A stretch of 41,913 nucleotides of DNA from Pontiellaceae bacterium B12219 (lineage in GTDB: Bacteria > Verrucomicrobiota > Kiritimatiellia > Kiritimatiellales > Pontiellaceae): NCBI GenBank assembly GCA_029432795.1, contig JARNMJ010000039.1, positions 1-41,913 on the forward strand, written 5' to 3'. Shown piece by piece: positions 1-31,485 of this stretch; positions within the stretch are counted from its first letter, which is position 1; each line of letters starts with the position of its first letter. Both the position numbers and the translations under genes were made by a program. The notes under the pieces were generated by a model. It ran no database searches. It was not told the origin of the DNA and saw only the letters and a program-made list of their open reading frames with translations.

Positions 1-75
1 CCGATGATTGGAATTCTTTTATGTCTTCACTGGATTCTGATTTAGCTCTCTCAACCGATTTCTGTTCTTCAATTT

Positions 76-90
76 TTCCGATGTTCGGAA
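76..90. repeat. TTCCG-N5-CGGAA palindrome
   Basis: Compensated variant of the TTCCA-N5-TGGAA family, with spacer ATGTT. Confidence 0.6.
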
Positions 91-209
91 TTTATTTTTT
101 GTTCCGGAGAATCAGTTTGTTTATTCCGGTTGAGCTGCTTGTTTTTCAGAGAATCTGAATTGATTATCTCTCCAAATTTTACTCTGTCACAGATCAATTA
201 AATTTCTCA

Positions 210-298
210 GTCCAACGTTCGGGCTGACCTGCCGTGAACATAAACGTTGACCGGATCAAACGGGCGTTTTCACGGTAAGGTCAAGCCCCTGGTTGGAC
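210..298 (-). mobile_element. attC-like integron recombination site
   Basis: The ends are GTCCAAC (210-216) and GTTGGAC (292-298), which fit the attC R-box patterns RYYYAAC and GTTRRRY and are perfectly complementary. Inside them are 4-5 unpaired bases. Next come L-box-like arms GGCTGACC (222-229) and GGTCAAGCC (279-287), which pair with one extra base on the right arm. CCGTGAA (232-238) then pairs with TTCACGG (269-275), with a variable loop in the centre. This order (R stem, unpaired spacer, L stem with extrahelical base, variable loop) and the 89-bp length are typical of attC. The extra base on the right arm suggests the site reads leftward. No integron integrase lies in the window, so activity is unknown. 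Confidence 0.6.
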
Positions 299-355: not shown

Positions 356-521
356 TTTGCCGAGAATCAATCGGTCAGGAAAAGCAGGTTGCAATCGAGT
401 GACTGGGGGTTCCGGTTGAACGGTATGGATTTGTTTTATTCAGTTTTTTCATTCAGGCACCGGAGTATTTTTTAAGCACCTTCGATTTTTATTTTTCTGT
501 CAGTCCAACAGTGGGTTAAAT

Positions 522-599
522 GGATTCAGTGTTTTCCGGGGATATATGGAATCATCTAACTCAATCGCACTGAATTCCGCATAATTCATCTCCGGAAAA
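522..599. other. Interlocked inverted repeats (pseudoknot topology)
   Basis: Arm A GGATTCAGTG (522-531) pairs with CACTGAATTCC (568-578), one base bulged. Arm B TTTTCCGGGGAT (532-543) pairs with ATCTCCGGAAAA (588-599) through one G-T wobble. The order A-B-A'-B' means both stems together would make an H-type pseudoknot, or they compete as alternative hairpins. It lies 3' of the leftward gene at 737-1492 and could be part of its transcript end or a small RNA. No known RNA family was recognised. Confidence 0.4.
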
Positions 600-736: not shown

Positions 737-1492
737 TCATTCAGCCTGTTTCATACCTGTTTTTGCGGTGTGGATATCGGCCTGGCAGGCTGAAAGGGTT
801 TTGTAGTCGTTTTCGAGCAGGAGCCAGCCGGTGTAGTTTTTGGTTTTGAGGATTTCCAGGCATTGGAAAAAACCGGAATTGCCTTTTCCCAGCGGTTGGG
901 AGGGGCCGTTGTCGGTACCGTCTTTGAGGTGCACTTCGCAGATGTGGGGATAGAGGGCTTCGAGGATTTCGGCGGAGTTGAGGCCGCTCATGGCAAAGGC
1001 GTTGCGGGTGTCGAAATAGATTTTAAGCTGGTCGGAGCCGACACGGTTGAGCAGTTCGAGCTGCTTTTCGGCGGAGAGGGCGTTTTCGGTTCCAATGATG
1101 AGGCCGGTGCCTTCGGCCAGTTTGCAGAGCAGGCGGAAACATTCGACGGTTTGTTCAAAGTCGGCGTCGGAGTTGATGAAGCTTTCACAGAAGCTGGGTA
1201 CCTGCAGTTTCGGGATGTTGAGTTCGGCGGCGGTTTGCACGGCGCTTTCGAATGTGCTTTTCAGGATTCCGAGTTGCGCGGGATCGCACATGCTGTGTTT
1301 GCAGCAGGCATTGATTCCAAGGGTTGGCAGTTCGAGTTTCCAATGGTTGGAAAGTTCGCGGAAACGGGGTTCGTTGCCGCCGGCGTTTTCGAGGTCGATT
1401 TCCAATCCTTTGAGGCCGGCCTGTGCGGCCCATTCAAACCGGGGTGCGGTTTCGGGGTGCGGAATATTCCATTCGCAGATGCCAATTTTCAT
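737..1492 (-). CDS. Sugar phosphate isomerase/epimerase-like TIM-barrel protein
   Basis: A 251-residue protein of the xylose-isomerase-like TIM-barrel superfamily (AP_endonuc_2 fold), which isomerises or epimerises sugars and related hydroxyacids using a divalent metal. The start MKIGICEWN and the strand-end residues typical of metal binding are visible: an E in IGTENAL, the D of YFDTRNAF, H in EVHLKDG and E near the end in LLLEND. Length is slightly short for the family (about 270-290). There is no signal peptide, so it is cytosolic. No good ribosome binding site precedes the ATG. It stands alone, divergent from tamA, so the substrate cannot be inferred. Two copies of the dispersed palindrome (854, 1338) lie inside the gene. 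Confidence 0.75.
   Translation of the reverse strand: MKIGICEWNIPHPETAPRFEWAAQAGLKGLEIDLENAGGNEPRFRELSNHWKLELPTLGINACCKHSMCDPAQLGILKSTFESAVQTAAELNIPKLQVPSFCESFINSDADFEQTVECFRLLCKLAEGTGLIIGTENALSAEKQLELLNRVGSDQLKIYFDTRNAFAMSGLNSAEILEALYPHICEVHLKDGTDNGPSQPLGKGNSGFFQCLEILKTKNYTGWLLLENDYKTLSACQADIHTAKTGMKQAE
854..868. repeat. Dispersed palindrome copy (coding)
   Basis: Exact TTCCA/TGGAA arms, spacer ggcat; encodes FQCLE in the TIM-barrel gene. Confidence 0.85.
1338..1352. repeat. Dispersed palindrome copy (coding)
   Basis: Exact arms, spacer atggt; encodes NHWK in the TIM-barrel gene. Confidence 0.85.
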
Positions 1493-3320: not shown

Positions 3321-5965
3321 TGAAGAAGAAAAGGTCCATTCTGAAAGTATTCGTTGGGTTGCTTCTGCTGCTTCCGGTCCTTGCGTTTCTGTTCATTCAG
3401 ACGCCTCCGGGAAAAGCGTTGCTGGCCCGGACGCTTTCATCCGTTTTGAGCCGTTCGGAGCAGCTGGAGGTTCGTATCGGCACGATCAGCGGCTGGATTC
3501 CGGGGAAGGTGAACATCAGTCGGCTGGAAGTGGGCGATGCCGAGGGAATCTGGCTGACGGCAGACGGGCTGCAGTGTCGCTGGATGATTCAGGAAATTTT
3601 TAAGGAGCGCATTCATGTGCCGCGCCTGAGTGCTGAAGCCATTGTCTGGCATCGGTTTCCAACCTATGGAAAACCGATGAAGCCGGACGGGAACAAGACC
3701 GCAAAGTTCCAACCCCGGGAAGTCCGGCTGGACGGGCTTTCGGTTGAACGTTTTCAATTGGATAAGGCGGTGACGGGAACGCCGCTTTCCTATTCGGTTC
3801 ATTCGGGCGAAATCAGCTTGCTCCCGTCCGGACAGTTTACGGGGATTCTGTTGGTCGGCGGCGATGCCGAAGGCGTGGTGGAACTCGATGCCCGGGTTGC
3901 CGGAACAAAAGAAGATCAGCTTAACGTTTCGGCCCGGCTGGATCGCATGACCCGCCCAACCTTCGGGCTCGAACAGATTTCCGGGGAGGCGGATGCCGTG
4001 ATTCGGGCCGATGGCGTGACGGCTGTGCTGAAAACCGATCTGCTGATGGGCGGGCAGACCAACCGGCTGGCAACGCGATTGCAGTTTAAAAATAAGGAAC
4101 TGCAGTTCCAGCAGTTTCAATTCAAGAATCCGGATTATTCCGGGGCCGGAGATCTGTCGCTGGCATTCAGCAATGCAACAATTAATGTGGCGCTGGATTC
4201 CTCGTTCATCAATGCGCAGACGAACCGGTTTGATGTGCGCGGAACGGCCGATGTTTCAACAAAAAACAAAACCTGGGGGGTTGCGCTCCATGAATTGGAA
4301 ATCCGGGGATGGGATGCGGTTTCGATGGTGATGTCGGGGCAGTTGAATCCGGATGCCGTCCGGTTGGTCGGAACAATTCCTGAAACCGATCTGGGGCGGT
4401 TTCCAATGGCTGGAAGTTCGAATTTTAATGGCCGCGTGAGCGGCTCCTTTTCCGTGCGCGGCCTGTTGGGCGAACCGGCAGTCGCGGCGGACTTGAGCAT
4501 TGTCGGCCTTTCCAGTGCCAAAGATGCGCTGGATGAACTGCCGGAACTTGATTTTCATATTTCAGGCGGGCTTGCGGAGGGCATGCTTTTTGCGCAGACC
4601 TCAATCACAAATTATACAAGCGGTTATTTTCTGGCTGATCTGAAGATGCCGGCCGTTTTGTCGCTGAACCCGCCGCGTTATGCGCCGGTGCCCCGGTCAA
4701 TTTCGGGGAATGTGGATGCCAGTCTGGATCTGGATATTTTTAATCGGCTGGCGCTGTTCGAAAATCAGTTCATCGCCGGTTGGCTGAATGCGCAGGTCAG
4801 CTATAACGAGGGGGTTCCTTCGGGATTTCTTAAAGTCGAAAACGGGCACTACGAAAACTATGCGCTGGGTTTTGTCTTTCGCGATTTTAACGCGGACTTC
4901 GAGGCAAACGAGACGGGATTTGTGGCGAAACACGCTGTGGCATCCGATGGCGGGGCAGGGCGGGTTGCGCTCAGCGGCGGGGTGATGCCGCGCGGATTCG
5001 ATCTGAATATTGATTTTTCAAAAGCGAACATTGTCAGCCGCGATGAAATTACTGCCCAGGTGTCCGGCAACCTTCAGGTGAACGGGCCGTTGAGCCGTCC
5101 GCTTGTTGCCGGCACGATGACGATTGATCGGGCAGATATTATGCTCGATAATATCATCACGCCGGCCCCTCCGCTGCTGACGGATTATCATCGGGCTGAA
5201 ACGAATGCCGTGGTTCAGGTGAATCGCAAAAAGCGGAAGCCGTCGCCGGTCGGTCTGGATATTCAGCTGAAGTTTCCGGATAAGGTTTTTGTGAATGCCT
5301 CCATGATTGAAGCGGTGCTGGGCGGAAGTCTGCATATTAAAGATACGCCGAAGGGGGTGTCGGTGAGCGGTACGATTGAGCCGCAGCGGGGTTTTGTGAG
5401 TTTTGTCGGTAAAAAATTCCGGTTTACGGAGGGCGATATTCAGATGGACGGTTCCATTCCGGTTAATGCAAATCTGGATAATCTGACTGCGGAATATTCC
5501 CGTCGCGATGTAACGGGCCGTCTGGTGCTGAACGGGCCGGTGAGCGATCCGCGGTTCCGGCTGGAATCCACCCCGTCGATGCCGGAAGATGAAGTGCTTT
5601 CCCACGTGCTGTTTAATCGGGATACAAGTTCAATTTCCCCGTATCAGGCCTATCAGATTGCCATGGCGGCCCGGCAGCTTTCCGGCGGAATGAGCGGGCC
5701 GGGGTTCATGTATGGCGTCCGCAAGGCCATCGGGGTGGACACACTTGAATGGCGCGAAGCTGAAGCGGCGGGGGAAGCCTCTTCGGTGGCAGCGGGAAAA
5801 TACATCACCTCCGGATTGTATGTGGAAGTCAATCAATCGCTCGAAGCCCGCGGCGAAACCGGCATGATGGCGGAACTGGAGGTGACCCGTCATTTTTCGG
5901 TGGAAACCTACACCGGTCCGAAGATGCAGCCGGGCCTGGGAGTGAACTGGCGGAACGACTATTAA
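3320..5965 (+). CDS. tamB: TamB-like translocation and assembly module protein
   Basis: An 881-residue protein with one N-terminal membrane anchor (hydrophobic run at about residues 8-28). A long region of beta-rich AsmA-like repeats follows, and the C-terminal TamB (DUF490) domain covers about residues 560-881, including SGTIEPQRGFVSFVGKKFRF and the DEVLSHVLFNRD segment. TamB spans the periplasm as an extended beta-taco and works with TamA. It is shorter than E. coli TamB (1259 residues), as is common outside Proteobacteria. The start codon shares a base with the tamA stop, so translation is coupled. Two palindrome copies (3657, 4401) lie in the N-terminal half, both read as P-x-x-G. Confidence 0.85.
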   Translation: MKKKRSILKVFVGLLLLLPVLAFLFIQTPPGKALLARTLSSVLSRSEQLEVRIGTISGWIPGKVNISRLEVGDAEGIWLTADGLQCRWMIQEIFKERIHVPRLSAEAIVWHRFPTYGKPMKPDGNKTAKFQPREVRLDGLSVERFQLDKAVTGTPLSYSVHSGEISLLPSGQFTGILLVGGDAEGVVELDARVAGTKEDQLNVSARLDRMTRPTFGLEQISGEADAVIRADGVTAVLKTDLLMGGQTNRLATRLQFKNKELQFQQFQFKNPDYSGAGDLSLAFSNATINVALDSSFINAQTNRFDVRGTADVSTKNKTWGVALHELEIRGWDAVSMVMSGQLNPDAVRLVGTIPETDLGRFPMAGSSNFNGRVSGSFSVRGLLGEPAVAADLSIVGLSSAKDALDELPELDFHISGGLAEGMLFAQTSITNYTSGYFLADLKMPAVLSLNPPRYAPVPRSISGNVDASLDLDIFNRLALFENQFIAGWLNAQVSYNEGVPSGFLKVENGHYENYALGFVFRDFNADFEANETGFVAKHAVASDGGAGRVALSGGVMPRGFDLNIDFSKANIVSRDEITAQVSGNLQVNGPLSRPLVAGTMTIDRADIMLDNIITPAPPLLTDYHRAETNAVVQVNRKKRKPSPVGLDIQLKFPDKVFVNASMIEAVLGGSLHIKDTPKGVSVSGTIEPQRGFVSFVGKKFRFTEGDIQMDGSIPVNANLDNLTAEYSRRDVTGRLVLNGPVSDPRFRLESTPSMPEDEVLSHVLFNRDTSSISPYQAYQIAMAARQLSGGMSGPGFMYGVRKAIGVDTLEWREAEAAGEASSVAAGKYITSGLYVEVNQSLEARGETGMMAELEVTRHFSVETYTGPKMQPGLGVNWRNDY
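3657..3671. repeat. Dispersed palindrome copy (coding)
   Basis: Exact arms, spacer accta; encodes FPTYGK in tamB. Flanks extend the inverted repeat to CGGTTTCCA/TGGAAAACCG. Confidence 0.85.
4401..4415. repeat. Dispersed palindrome copy (coding)
   Basis: Exact arms, spacer atggc; encodes FPMAGS in tamB. Confidence 0.85.
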
Positions 5966-10973: not shown

Positions 10974-11050
10974 GAGTGATTAGCTCAGTTGGTTAGAGCA
11001 CTACCTTGACATGGTAGGGGTCGGAAGTTCGAATCTTCTATCACTCACCA
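10974..11050 (+). tRNA. tRNA-Val (anticodon GAC)
   Basis: A full cloverleaf: acceptor GAGTGAT/ATCACTC, D arm GCTC/GAGC, anticodon stem CTACC/GGTAG with loop TTGACAT (anticodon GAC), T arm GGAAG/CTTCT with TTCGAAT loop, and genomically encoded CCA. It stands alone with its own promoter and terminator. Confidence 0.95.
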
Positions 11051-31113: not shown

Positions 31114-31471
31114 GACAGACAGGGTGTATCGGTCGCTCTTTCCAATCTTTGGAAAGGGAGGAAAGTCCGGACTCCGCAGGGCAGGACGTCCCGTGGTTAA
31201 CGCGGGAACTCATGTGCCAGACCGCATGGGATGGAAAGTGCCGCAGAAAATATACCGCCATACCCGTTTTGCGGGTGTGGTAAGGGTGAAATGGTGGGGT
31301 AAGAGCCCACCGGACCAAAGGTAACGATGGTCGTATGGTAAACCCCGTCTGGAGCAAGATCGAATAGGGAACCGAGGAGCTGCCCGCTCCGTTTAAGTTC
31401 CGGGTTGATCGCACTAGATAAATGACTGACTCCGCAAGGAGAACAAAATCCGGCTTACCGCCCTGTCTGTC
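31114..31471 (+). ncRNA. rnpB: RNase P RNA (type A)
   Basis: The catalytic RNA of RNase P, which trims tRNA 5' leaders. P1 is closed by GACAGACAGGG (31114-31124) and CCCTGTCTGTC (31461-31471). The conserved P4 core GAGGAAAGTCCGGACTCC is near 31157, the pairing partner region with AGATAAATGACTGACTCC and ATCCGGCTTACCG near the 3' end, and GAGGAGCTGCCC in the middle. A T tract follows P1 and could terminate transcription. The hairpin at the P3 position is an exact copy of the dispersed palindrome. Confidence 0.95.
31140..31154. repeat. Dispersed palindrome copy inside rnpB
   Basis: Exact arms, spacer atctt; the arms, extended to CTTTCCA/TGGAAAG, make up the whole P3-position hairpin. Confidence 0.85.
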
Positions 31472-31485
31472 TTTTTTATTCGGGT

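Follow-up and report, generated by a model that had tools for sequence, protein, structure and literature searches.

Integrons are usually pictured as one integrase, one attI site and one array of cassettes, and arrays without an integrase are ascribed to decay or to stray insertion. Clusters of attC sites lacking an integron integrase (CALIN, with two or more attC sites) are common. Cassette insertion at attG sites is a further route (Loot et al. 2024, as cited in PMC12901181 and PMC12444791). The integron integrase (IntI) acts on attC as a folded bottom strand and recombines it with attI, which is double-stranded and recognised by its sequence (PMC11023631). In Xanthomonas, CALINs are found at conserved positions away from the integron (PMC12444791), and CALINs are mobilisable in trans (PMC12444791, PMC9668308). 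The element described here is an attC site near one end of a 41,913-nt contig of Pontiellaceae bacterium B12219; this whole stretch is called the window below, and is contig C206 in the numbering of its own genome, a draft of 273 contigs. The attC itself is of known type, and the dispersed arrays headed by attI-like sites that were found in this genome and its relatives look like an apparently new form of integron. We consider it probable that the site closes, as its attC, the first cassette of an array running leftward from an attI-like site to contig C273, and that the single IntI of the genome, encoded on contig C216, most likely acts there in trans.

The attC site lies at 210-298 on the minus strand. 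Its R boxes, GTCCAAC (210-216) and GTTGGAC (292-298), are fully paired and match the attC consensus RYYYAAC / GTTRRRY with 0 mismatches; read on the minus strand, 298-292 is R'' (GTCCAAC) and 216-210 is R' (GTTGGAC). Unpaired spacers of 4 nt and 3 nt, L-like boxes (GGGC-TGACC / GGTCAAGCCC) with a single extra base in the right half (T at 283/284, in L'') and a variable terminal loop complete the hairpin, whose architecture was found as an earlier note on this DNA had described it. As single-stranded DNA the site folds at -25.7 kcal/mol (z -4.7), a value equalled by 0/200 shuffles, and a combined filter on R boxes, spacing and folding retained it as the sole pair in the window.

The earlier note had called the hairpin attC-like and proposed to run an attC covariance model over the contig and to look for further attC sites. 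The model used was built from 26 aligned attC sites of this genome, which did not include the window's own, and is distinct from that of IntegronFinder; it gave 210-298 a score of 96.1 bits (E 2.7e-22), with no other match in the window, and the attC identity is thereby borne out. In the same alignment compensatory changes preserve the stem (covariation score 0.383, compared with 0.128 for shuffles and at most 0.075 for slid partners), and 7 of the 10 L-box pairs have changes on both sides. Paired L boxes, an extrahelical base and unpaired spacers, by which an attC is defined and whose structure is better conserved than their sequence, are all present according to the fold, the covariation and the held-out model. 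The site is thus confirmed as a genuine integron attC, and an ordinary one, whose recombination by IntI as a folded bottom strand is predicted from sequence.

Thirty-six attC sites were detected in the genome with the covariance model, many of them in cassette arrays, and BLAST searches returned 14 further copies of the window site. Four small contigs (C15, C16, C23 and C24) carry arrays with one orientation per contig; copies also occur on C110, C228, C231 and C273, and one more on C216. No Rfam family matches the hairpin 210-298, and no relative of the region 100-700 was found among phage and plasmid records. Being an inverted repeat present in several copies, the hairpin could be taken for a non-integron repeat, such as a repetitive extragenic palindrome (REP) or a miniature inverted-repeat transposable element (MITE). 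The R boxes, the single extra base and the variable loop speak against such a repeat, as do the array spacing, the single orientation per array and the fact that the genome encodes an integron integrase. This reading is refuted by the evidence from covariance and from the arrays, and its probability is regarded as negligible.

Because the extra L-box base is in the right half of the plus strand, the order R''-L''-L'-R' reads on the minus strand; this polarity agrees with the direction of cassette genes on the array contigs, and the leftward polarity previously deduced from the extra base therefore holds. The recurrence of TCAGTCCAAC at 500-509, also pointed out in the earlier note, is present and marks the upstream limit of the cassette that this attC closes, reading G^TTGGACTGA on the minus strand. 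Its placing of the site outside a visible cassette array must accordingly be corrected, since this second border is followed by the attI-like site. With crossover points (G^TT) at 216/215 on the R' side and at 509/508, the first cassette spans 216-508 on the minus strand, measures 293 bp and is gene-less, having no open reading frame above 37 aa on its own strand. On C16, a cassette that comes after an attC begins with sequence sharing 75% identity with the segment 427-509. A degenerate repeat of about 30 bases (GGTGC.TGAA..AA....CTCCG) was observed in gene-less cassettes, at 427-508 of the window and at 4328-4545 of locus L017. Positions 1-215 (minus strand), which follow the attC when it is read in its canonical orientation, are probably the beginning of a second cassette that is truncated where the contig stops; within them, 53-96 gives short matches to the starts of cassettes on C15 and C24.

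The sequence just outside the cassette border (AACAGTGGGTTAAATGGATTC...) resembles the segment adjacent to intI on C216 (AACAGTGTGTTAGATCGAATC...) and the array borders on C231 and C110. The attI-like site so delimited (507-562, minus strand) is homologous to the C216 segment and to the start of the C231 array and, more weakly, to that of C110. An 18-base attI pattern, which has 12 matches genome-wide at up to 3 mismatches, is found with 0 mismatches on C110 and C231, 1 on C216 and 3 in the window. The local alignment of about 55 bp between the window site and that of C231 was matched in quality by 0/5000 shuffles, and the alignment with the intI-adjacent site of C216 by 5/5000. A 14-base core drawn from these attI-like sites was also sought in loci outside its defining set, mostly from relatives: 11 matches were obtained in 63 kb upstream of first attC sites, versus 3 in the 158 kb of other positions and another 3 in 221 kb of the opposite strand, a part of the 11 being mutual copies within one relative (G005), so that the independent cases are fewer than 11. 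Cores with permuted letters gave a mean of 1.4 matches, and 1/300 reached 10. C231 also carries another attI-like motif (L022, canonical position 5603), which is more degenerate than the first and lies 476 bp upstream of it.

The integrase gene probably lies elsewhere. Seven tyrosine recombinase matches were obtained in the genome, 6 of which were scored against NCBIfam, and only that of C216 passes TIGR02249 (426.6 bits, for a cut-off of 265). The other tyrosine recombinases were rejected as integron integrases on score, and no second match at the level of an integron integrase is present among the protein-search matches listed for the own genome. The C216 integrase is adjoined by an attC of the same family (L004, 46-134), with attI in the segment between them. 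A gene near this intI has its counterpart on contig C149 of the relative G001, and not on C120; since the C216 flank is thus syntenic with a different G001 contig, the integrase is probably situated elsewhere in the chromosome. No similarity to IntI was detected in positions 1-1500 of the window, so the adjacency of intI and attI that marks a complete integron is lacking there. An array or its integrase had been expected to the left of the window: the array does continue to the left, across an assembly gap to C273, and the integrase part of this expectation is not supported, the only intI being that of C216.

The chromosomal position of the array was deduced from synteny. Its neighbour on the attI side is a TIM-barrel gene (AP_endonuc_2; 737-1492, minus strand; Pfam PF01261, E 3.4e-21) that is syntenic in two relatives, G001 and G016. 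The gene order in G001 is TIM-barrel, LOG-like, DUF1294-like, Fic and pgi (LOG, DUF1294, Fic, pgi and, below, IS1380 are names read from the translations). The right end of C273 carries pgi (96% identical to that of G001) and a DUF1294-like gene, after which come an IS1380-type transposase gene, a degenerate last attC in the same orientation (99564-99652; 43 bits) and, close to where the contig stops, a Fic-type gene. The link to the missing side of the locus was given by pgi, the best match of the Fic gene being just 28%, and the LOG-like gene, searched for in the own genome, was not found. From the synteny with G001, the array sits between the DUF1294-like gene of C273 and the TIM-barrel gene, extending left into the gap. 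C273 and C206 are therefore most likely the two sides of a single array, which separates a pair of conserved genes that are near neighbours in the relative and has its attI-like start at the window end. On sequence grounds, an attC, its cassette borders and a homologous attI-like flank with no adjacent intI are thereby placed between two genes. The attC sites seen at this locus are the one in the window and the one on C273 across the syntenic gap, the intervening stretch being unassembled. At this place G001 and G016 have the LOG-like gene and no array in the stretch read, and these relatives are too distant to show an empty site.

A chimeric contig end, resulting from assembly or binning, might create such a picture, given that the window attC is just 210 bp from the end of its contig in a draft of 273 contigs and that attC repeats complicate assembly (PMC9024848). 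However, C273 independently carries an attC at the matching far side of the same syntenic gap, and the same arrangement is found on C110, where an attI-like start, 3 attC sites and chromosome on either side are all contained in one 73.8-kb contig; an artefact is thus regarded as very improbable. Outside the array locus, the window also holds a Class A RNase P RNA (31116-31473) and a tRNA-Val (gac) (10974-11050), both ordinary.

Integron integrases and many attC sites were found across the genus. In G005, a segment running from inside the 5' end of intI to the attI crossover (reference L073) is repeated at 4 further places (L096, L097, L098 and L099) with 98.6-100% identity over 303-421 bp. In these copies intI is cut at differing points (L073 positions 2102, 2123, 2165 and 2215), and all of them end at the attI crossover. 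Each copy heads a different array without intI; beyond the crossover the copies lead into unrelated sequence, with one weak 69-bp match as the exception. L096 and L097, and likewise L098 and L099, share longer upstream stretches with IS110-type transposase genes, and elements of this type may be a means of spread for the orphan copies; nothing like these IS110-type neighbours was seen at the window site. A sigma-70-like Pc promoter was sought in one orphan attI module of G005, and none was found. Tandem attI modules of 188 bp in G024 (L100, 4868-5054 and 7839-8026) and of 219 bp in G027 (L086, 811-1029 and 2764-2979) are 92-93% identical, with their own cassettes after each and no intI at the place. 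G027, whose genome is about 96% complete, has 47 attC matches in many places (L086-L093) and no match at the level of an integron integrase.

These relatives bear on whether the window locus is a degraded integron, that is, one whose local intI was lost and whose attI-like site and cassettes are a relic without cassette exchange. The truncated intI 5' ends of the orphan copies in G005, and the many attC sites of G027 with no integrase to match, would fit such decay. In contrast, no intI remnant is found at the window site, and in G005 unrelated cassettes follow attI copies that are almost the same, which points to cassette exchange once the copies had been made and not to decay alone; degradation is therefore judged a possible but unlikely explanation. 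The same unrelated cassettes suggest capture in trans.

Another explanation is that IntI put the cassette at a non-specific chromosomal site (attG), the attI likeness of 507-562 then reflecting a preference of the integrase. Insertions of this kind are documented (Loot et al. 2024, as cited in PMC12901181 and PMC12444791), and in this group there are dispersed arrays without a recognisable attI-like start, as well as a lone attC on C204. However, the shared flank of about 55 bp goes far beyond a short core and is common to the intI-adjacent site and to other array starts, and whole segments of 300-420 bp are copied in G005; such an insertion is considered improbable for the window locus. The lone attC (C204, 16850-16937; L094 / L113; 62 bits), on a 42.5-kb contig where no attI-like motif was found, is itself a candidate for a true secondary-site insertion. 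The arrays without a recognisable attI-like start indicate that ordinary insertion at secondary sites, or decay, probably takes place in the group as well.

The preferred reading remains an array with an attI-like start that is served in trans. Cassettes would be inserted by the single C216 IntI as folded single-stranded attC bottom strands; the enzyme would act in trans at the window site and at no fewer than two further attI-like sites dispersed in the genome, and the array would start at 507-562, run leftward off the contig and end on C273. The window cassette would have docked at 509/508, earlier cassettes being pushed leftward. Recognition of the orphan attI-like sites by IntI, and its action on them in trans, are most likely in view of the different cassettes that stand behind near-identical attI copies in G005. 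Several observations weigh against this reading. The window site is more diverged (3/18 mismatches) than those of C231 and C110, and its likeness to the C110 site is weak (101/5000 shuffles as good). Unlike the G005 copies, it has no remnant of intI, and in relatives an attI-like start cannot be recognised for many of the dispersed arrays. Finally, the array lies in an assembly gap, so that neither its length nor the lack of an internal intI can be read directly from the sequence.

A wider proposal, which we hold tentatively and put at slightly less than an even chance, is that the lineage has a multi-locus integron, in which one integrase would serve dispersed attI sites in trans while attI modules, which in G005 include a truncated intI 5' end and total about 300-420 bp, would multiply in the genome and seed new arrays. 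If some integrase-less arrays begin at true attI copies, a cell could use one integrase for several cassette arrays in different places on the chromosome, and the near-identical attI copies of G005 make the idea of action in trans directly testable. No paper on orphan attI sites heading CALINs, or on integrons in this lineage, was found in a search that covered mainly open-access papers. Outside class 1 integrons attI is undetected by IntegronFinder 2.0 (PMC9024848), so that orphan arrays headed by attI would escape notice.

Compared with known systems, the locus resembles an attG insertion (Loot et al. 2024) in that a chromosomal cassette stands away from the integron, and differs from it in its flank homology of about 55 bp to other array starts, where attG is short and degenerate. 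It is like a sedentary chromosomal integron in its attC architecture, attI-like start, single polarity, many cassettes and an IntI in the genome; unlike such an integron, it has no intI beside the attI-like site, and several such sites are present per genome. With CALINs it shares a cassette array without a neighbouring integrase, whereas its start is homologous to the attI of the resident integron, a feature that the CALIN definition does not include.
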